From Gemmatimonadota bacterium (lineage in GTDB: Bacteria; Gemmatimonadota; Gemmatimonadetes; Gemmatimonadales; Gemmatimonadaceae): 48,606 nt of DNA. How positions within the stretch are numbered: the stretch's first letter is position 1; each line of letters starts with the position of its first letter. Shown piece by piece: positions 7,527 to 7,705 of this stretch. A program made the position numbers and the translations under genes. The stretch covers positions 1 to 48,606 of the forward strand of contig JACQBG010000004.1 of the NCBI GenBank assembly GCA_016194585.1. The letters are read 5' to 3'. The notes beneath the pieces were generated by a model that was not told where the DNA came from, made no database searches, and saw only the letters and a list, made by a program, of their open reading frames with translations.

Positions 7527-7705
7527 GTGGGAGGGCAAGTCGCCAGGGGGCGAGGTCGAGTGGGCGTGGGAGCATAGTGGGAGTGGGACGCCTCGCACTC
7601 GCACTCGCACTCCCACTCCCACTCCCACTGTAGAGGGAGTTCGGCCCACTCGCACTCGGCTCCCACTCGCACTCGACCTCGCCCCCTGGCGCCTTGCCCT
7701 CCCAC
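7527..7705. repeat. Nested inverted repeat element with hexamer tandem array
   Basis: Arms of 47 bases at 7527-7573 and 7659-7705 are reverse complements with three mismatches. The 85-base interior holds a second, smaller inverted repeat (7576-7588 against 7617-7629) and a run of six hexamer-like units, three GCACTC then three CCACTC, at 7595-7629. The outer arm begins at the base after the upstream stop codon and the right arm ends 35 bases before the guaB -10 box. It could form a cruciform in DNA or a long hairpin in RNA, act as a terminator, or be a palindromic mobile repeat. No transposase or target-site duplication is seen. Confidence 0.85.

Follow-up and report, generated by a model that had tools for sequence, protein, structure and literature searches.

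A hairpin upstream of guaB in a Gemmatimonadota genome is probably a gene-less relative of dispersed palindromic elements that carry an IVP gene

What is the large nested inverted repeat that stands in front of guaB in this member of the Gemmatimonadaceae? In the window, i.e., the whole stretch of 48,606 nucleotides that was analysed, no other inverted repeat whose copies are no more than 300 nt apart comes near it in length. It lies between guaB (IMP dehydrogenase; 7751..9262, + strand; PF00478 E 4e-157, in-frame ATG at 7751) and an upstream open reading frame of 110 aa (7194..7526, + strand) that is DUF2281-like, its PF10047 match of E 1.6e-4 being short of the cut-off of that profile. The latter gene is a genus neighbour of guaB and adjoins it in 19 other guaB loci detected by tblastn. 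A sequence-only reading of this DNA had described arms of 47 bases with 44 matches, and the cores at 7527-7573 and 7659-7705 do pair at 44 of 47 positions. With an inverted-repeat search of the window they could be extended to a left arm at 7520..7590 (+ strand) and a right arm at 7642..7712 (- strand), of 71 nt each, 87 % complementary and 51 nt apart. The inner inverted repeat reported earlier was also borne out (AGTGGGAGTGGGA / TCCCACTCCCACT, perfect across 13 nt); its left half is located at 7576..7588 (+ strand) and can be partnered by 7611-7623 or 7617-7629 (100 %). The loop holds a hexamer array at 7592..7630 (+ strand; TRF period 6, 6.3 copies, 96 %), in which the three GCACTC units of the sequence-only reading were recovered at 7595, 7601, and 7607, while only two of its three CCACTC units are exact (7613 and 7619), the third, at 7625, actually being CCACTG and thus one base off. 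The start of the element at a stop codon was confirmed: the TGA of the upstream gene occupies 7524-7526 and the arm core runs from 7527, the extended left arm (from 7520) overlapping this stop codon.

The RNA of 7510-7730 folds with -155.2 kcal/mol, compared with -95.6 (sd 4.5) for 200 dinucleotide shuffles, none of which was equally stable (z -13.3). No Rfam family was matched in the window, and no target-site duplication was seen by eye at this copy. A terminator or RNA-processing signal, two of the roles suggested earlier, could be a side effect of such a hairpin, but the T-run signature of a terminator was not found and no intrinsic-terminator-like site is present in 7400-7900.

Copies elsewhere in the genome and in relatives, the first check proposed from the sequence, are numerous both in the genome to which the window belongs (G000; 3.34 Mb in 50 contigs, 98 % complete) and in its sister, the MAG G017. 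A search of G000 with the window element gave 80 matches that resolve into at least 18 loci, a lower bound since 40 of 66 first-look candidates were scored. Left out of this count were L027 and L028, which match only arrays, the internal match L011_2116, which is no arm, and L026, because it is the other contig end of L019. Seven of the 18 loci are inverted pairs (the window copy, L009, L010, L011, L012, L015, and L019) and 11 are single arms. The family arm is approximately 65-70 nt long with the consensus, made by eye, CGGCAGTGGGAGGGCAAG-N6-G[CG]GGG[CG]GAGGTCGAGTG[GC]GAGTGGGAGCCGAGTG[GC]GAGTGGG[AC]C, from which the left core of the window copy deviates by 1 mismatch and the right core by 0. 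A chance local duplication followed by inversion, to which the absence of any other copy would have pointed, draws some plausibility from the ease with which short hexamer units slip. It is ruled out by the dispersed copies, at least 18 loci sharing the 65-70-nt arm, and is opposed by the stability of the fold as well; the probability left to it is negligible.

Some details of the arms were noted in passing. In L012 and L009-L025, six variable bases occupy a fixed place after GGGCAAG and are usually unmatched between the two arms of one copy, and near them positions switch between GGGGGC and GCGGGG. Terminator-like hairpins of unrelated sequence are located inside or adjoining some elements (L019, L018, and L155). 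The contig ends of C30 and C7 of the assembly carry the same palindromic locus (L019 and L026), from which it follows that palindromes break the assembly.

Among 41 genomes, G000 itself and relatives, matches to the family at E ≤ 0.001 were obtained in nine, all of one genus, and many copies are present only in G000 and G017. The arm pattern is absent from viral contigs. Sites filled in both G000 and G017, the latter being 78 % complete, number seven of 18 (L010, L011, L012, L014, L017, L019, and L020); G017 runs into GGGGGAGGG arrays at the positions of L009 and L025, and its site for L013 appears to be empty. For G006, in which no match to the family was found, sequence could be aligned to the left and right of seven of the 11 loci tried (the window copy, L013, L015, L021, L023, L024, and L025). 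The copies, the orthologous sites without the element, and a gene-bearing relative described below support the earlier option of a palindromic mobile repeat; from these sequence comparisons the family is probably mobile. The same comparisons bear on the option that the hairpin specifically regulates guaB as an attenuator or processing signal. A distance of 38 nt separates the element from the guaB ATG downstream, and palindromes, of other sequence, are also present in the spacer before guaB in G012 and G015. However, the same family adjoins many unrelated genes, G006 and G008 have no copy of it in this spacer, and the palindrome in G015 is itself a dispersed repeat, leaving a guaB regulator unsupported and, in our estimate, very improbable.

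The main finding, which could not be seen by the reader of the sequence alone, is the link of this family to a gene. PF05635 (IVP, for "23S rRNA intervening sequence protein") is a family of four-helix-bundle proteins, the genes of which have hitherto been known mainly from insertions within ribosomal RNA genes. IVP proteins are widely annotated as "S23 ribosomal protein" or "four helix bundle protein"; to our knowledge, their function is not known. A profile search revealed three PF05635 genes in G000. One of these, in L012 (ORF 2242-2679, 145 aa, E 1e-10), lies inside an inverted pair of the window's own family, with arms near 2005-2114 and 2737-2841. The single PF05635 match in G017 (C345:588-743) is likewise located between arms, at C345:278-339 (+) and C345:869-932 (-). 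The second G000 gene, in L030, is flanked by inverted GGGGGAGGG arms, which have matches at six other places in G000 and at three in G017, and the third, L029, has no flanking arms. We conclude that the guaB hairpin is, with high probability, a gene-less relative of a dispersed family of IVP-bearing palindromic elements.

The arrangement extends beyond this family. In 33 of the 41 genomes, 147 PF05635 matches were found, of which 108 were set up as loci (L063, L065, L067, and L076 were excluded as too short) and 107 tested, L204 being short of flank. An inverted repeat was sought between the 500 nt on each side of the gene. Inverted arms with a score of 16 or more surround the IVP gene in 95 of the 107 loci, all from this bacterial order, as compared with two of 230 random windows in guaB loci and 13 of 535 combinations of arms swapped between loci, the latter hits having been kept in although they may include loci of one family. 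L029 of G000 is among the 12 loci under the threshold. Many of the arms are tandem arrays of short units that are specific for the locus (AGAGTTG, GACCGAA, GGTGTTA, CGGAAGC, etc.), and when read from the outside inwards 85 of the 95 contain more G than C.

Gene-less relatives, too, accompany IVP genes in other genomes. In twenty stretches from four IVP-rich genomes (398 kb), nine gene-less short-unit palindromes were detected, while none was present in twenty stretches from four genomes without a PF05635 match (389 kb; one-sided Mann-Whitney p 0.005). They are spread unevenly, with six in G023, two in G025, one in G015, and none in G021, and are undercounted, since the detector requires simple tandem arrays and missed the window's own element. 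For eight of the nine, comparison with the flanks of the 108 IVP loci gave as top match a locus in the palindrome's own genome, and never the palindrome's own place. The palindrome in the guaB spacer of G015, which differs from that of the window, has 13 matches in G015, and one copy directly adjoins an IVP gene at C3:186167; the guaB spacers of two congeners thus hold gene-less members of different IVP families.

The sites of the elements were analysed for 86 of the 107 tested loci, 89 being bounded and 86 of these having both neighbours predicted. Gene calls were made with a simple codon score, and control spacers were few (n=27). The stop codon of a neighbour was found no more than 20 nt from the element end in 64 of the 86. 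Where a neighbour has its 3' end towards the element, the median distance is 5 nt, and where it has its 5' end there, 59 nt. The gene that follows the IVP gene is oriented with the 3' end towards it in 67 of 86 cases (binomial p 2e-7), the gene that precedes it in 42 of 86. The window copy, with its start on a stop codon, fits this pattern. The pattern is weaker for the window-family copies in G000, which show no clear bias to 3' ends (10 tandem, five divergent, and two convergent among 17 loci classed). Direct repeats with a score of at least 11 flank two of 89 IVP elements, compared with one of 890 controls, so that a general target-site duplication, a feature of classical IS elements and MITEs, was not found.

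Turnover at these sites can be followed between the close relatives G010 and G012. The sites of the gene-bearing elements L133 and L136 of G012 are empty in G010, where the flanks have 90-96 % identity. On either side of L136 stands a near-direct repeat of 20 nt from the end of the upstream gene, which is single in the G010 stretch examined. Other sites hold different palindromes in the two genomes: those of L191 and L155 of G010 are occupied in G012 by AGCTGTC and GGACGGC palindromes, respectively, and that of L188 of G012 is taken in G010 by a GAGTGGGGAG palindrome. Gene-bearing L188 itself sits within outer GAGTGGGGAG sequence, where G010 (L289) has the gene-less palindrome, which suggests insertion of one element into another. 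At L288 of G012, the last 24 nt of the upstream gene, including the stop codon, are tandemly duplicated just before a gene-less palindrome. L075 (G010:C115) and L139 (G012:C24) share one site, at which the IVP elements of the two genomes point in opposite directions, as would result from inversion through the arms or from replacement. This pair, with a similar protein and no flank match, was dropped as a case of movement, and for that reason the other pairs without flank match were not used as proof of movement either.

Several of these observations would also be expected of a REP- or BIME-like repeat that spreads independently of IVP, with hairpins at 3' ends being kept for ending or protecting transcripts and multiplied by slippage and gene conversion, and the IVP gene being cargo inserted between two repeats. 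The median of 5 nt to facing stop codons, single arms being commoner than pairs, the missing target-site duplication, the refilling of sites by other palindrome families, and the fact that no catalytic domain is known to us in IVP all agree with it. But 95 of 107 IVP genes have their own matching arm pair with its own unit sequence, eight of the nine gene-less palindromes match arms of IVP genes of the same genome, and such palindromes were not seen in the 389 kb of IVP-free genomes. As nearly every IVP gene has its own matching arms, the pattern is not readily explained by IVP as cargo, and we regard this alternative as rather unlikely.

The reading preferred here is that IVP promotes multiplication of the hairpin in trans, which is the simplest way to account for the single gene in each element, the strong selection acting on this gene, and the siblings that have the same arms but no gene. 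The dependence of mobility on IVP we hold to be about evenly balanced, and a counterpoint is that single arms outnumber pairs in G000 (11 vs 7). How the element would move is inferred from the sequences. IVP may recognise the hairpin made by the arms, either as RNA or as single-stranded DNA, and would, in trans, help copy it into new sites just past stop codons; copies without the gene would be mobilised likewise, in the manner proposed for REPINs and their RAYTs. Host enzymes would have to do the cutting and copying, since neither a nuclease nor a polymerase domain is known to us in IVP. At guaB, the window copy would mostly be a passenger that places a long hairpin on transcripts leaving the DUF2281-like gene, and it may stabilise or end the transcript of that gene.

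IVP proteins are under purifying selection, as judged from dN/dS values of 0.06-0.25 in 12 of 12 sequence pairs. Most are basic, a pI above 8.5 having been calculated for 99 of 108, a count without a control, while the IVP of the window's family is neutral (pI 6.9), so that nucleic-acid binding is not favoured for it. The best solved relative by sequence is 2gsc (E 9e-4). A single-sequence AlphaFold model of the G017 IVP was poor (pLDDT 67), and Foldseek with this model returned nothing at E ≤ 0.001. No relative of the IVP of L130 was found in phage records.

Comparison with known systems places the family near several of them. An rRNA intervening sequence (IVS) such as that of Coxiella burnetii is described as an S23/IVP ORF between inverted terminal repeats; the same paper mentions IVSs without a gene and an earlier proposal that IVSs are remnants of mobile elements (PMC4990558). 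The likeness is in a PF05635 protein between terminal inverted repeats with a long stem and a gene that is sometimes missing, and long-stem terminal inverted repeats with or without the ORF were found here in the arms and fold of the window element and in the gene-bearing L012. Unlike 23S rRNA IVSs, the window family occurs outside rRNA in many dispersed gene-less copies, the window copy being located between the DUF2281-like gene and guaB rather than inside a 23S rRNA gene, and the IVP elements studied here are found at gene 3' ends and have arms of short units that vary by locus. In the open-licence papers, no report of IVP genes with flanking repeats outside rRNA was recognised.

REPINs are REP doublets that go with the Y1 transposase RAYT (PMC3116915, PMC8266576). 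Shared features are single and inverted paired dispersed repeats at gene ends and a gene flanked by the same repeats as the presumed partner in trans, and a REPIN-type arrangement is seen in G000 with seven paired and 11 single copies, one pair being located around the IVP gene. Unlike in REPINs, the partner gene here belongs to PF05635, and the units, composed of short arrays, are of far greater length. A RAYT partner was rejected because the Y1 (HUH) transposase profile PF01797 had no match in G000, although the control search gave matches in five of 14 genomes. By analogy, the window family would seem to work as REPIN/RAYT systems do, but it lacks their defining partner.

A retroelement would offer another route, the hairpin RNA being copied by a reverse transcriptase (RT) with IVP as accessory protein, like Avd in diversity-generating retroelements (DGRs). 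Avd, a DGR accessory protein essential for retrohoming, is said to resemble PF05635 (PMC10053308), and the position of the elements at transcript 3' ends would suit such a route. In contrast to DGRs, no RT, template, or variable repeat was seen at the IVP elements. RVT_1 (PF00078) was matched in only four of 41 genomes, a profile outside which a distant RT may fall, and in none of the IVP-rich or element-carrying genomes G000, G002, G012, G015, G021, G022, G023, G025, G033, and G040. This rarity makes an RT partner unlikely in most of these genomes, and we consider the retroelement route improbable.

Outside the phylum, relatives of IVP were found by tblastn in 32 plasmid records, largely cyanobacterial. 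Sixteen plasmid loci, mostly cyanobacterial but including L309 from Gemmatirosa, which is of the same phylum as the window, and L308 from Azospirillum, were tested for arms, and 13 of these score 17 or more, with units mostly of approximately 7 nt. The swapped-arm control for the plasmids has a 95th percentile of 17.5 and a maximum of 23.5, making the weakest of the 13 individually unsafe. Arms were negative or weak in L302, L312, and L313. Inverted arrays of 7-nt units accompany the IVP genes on plasmids of, among others, Nostoc and Calothrix, and a similar scan of 100 kb of a Nostoc plasmid revealed two gene-less palindromes, both intergenic. In L301, L303, and L313, all on cyanobacterial plasmids, the IVP gene stands within a CRISPR operon, with either cas6 and cas4 or cmr2 and cmr3 as its two neighbours. 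The cyanobacterial short tandemly repeated repetitive (STRR) sequences are presented as hairpin-forming tandem units of 7 nt between genes, function unknown (PMC2670836). By that account, they resemble the elements described here in having 7-nt tandem hairpin units between genes, with the plasmid IVP genes having inverted 7-nt arrays. The plasmid arrays thus suggest a link between STRRs and IVP, the comparison being with the general description of STRRs.

That rRNA intervening sequences might be mobile elements is an old conjecture which, within the rRNA genes themselves, has been difficult to put to the test; an IVP gene in matching arms outside rRNA, together with gene-less siblings, makes it testable, and its own arms provide a substrate on which IVP can be tested. 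PF05635 proteins might, as a proposal to which we give somewhat less than an even chance, be the hallmark of minimal mobile elements that form a large, unrecognised class and have no transposase, recombinase, or RT of their own; rRNA IVSs, the element in the window, and some of the cyanobacterial STRR hairpins would all belong to it. Equally tentatively, such an element would consist of a small four-helix-bundle gene in inverted arms of short units, inserted after stop codons, with gene-less swarms that are mobilised in trans. The IVP genes in matching arms outside rRNA could also be where hairpins of short units, STRRs for instance, come from, and the mechanism would be new if IVP indeed spreads DNA without a known catalytic domain.

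Some minor features were seen by eye next to the hairpin. In 7739-7810 of the window, a TATATTT-like box is present a few nucleotides before the guaB ATG, and the first guaB codons hold a GC-rich inverted repeat, CCCGCCCCGGCCAGCGCCGGCCGCGGGG. This hairpin at the guaB start may be a leader or attenuator of guaB, the true start of which would then be further downstream. Counterparts of other sequence are present upstream of guaB in L107-L111 and L119, and in L119 the hairpin at the guaB start is followed by a T-run.
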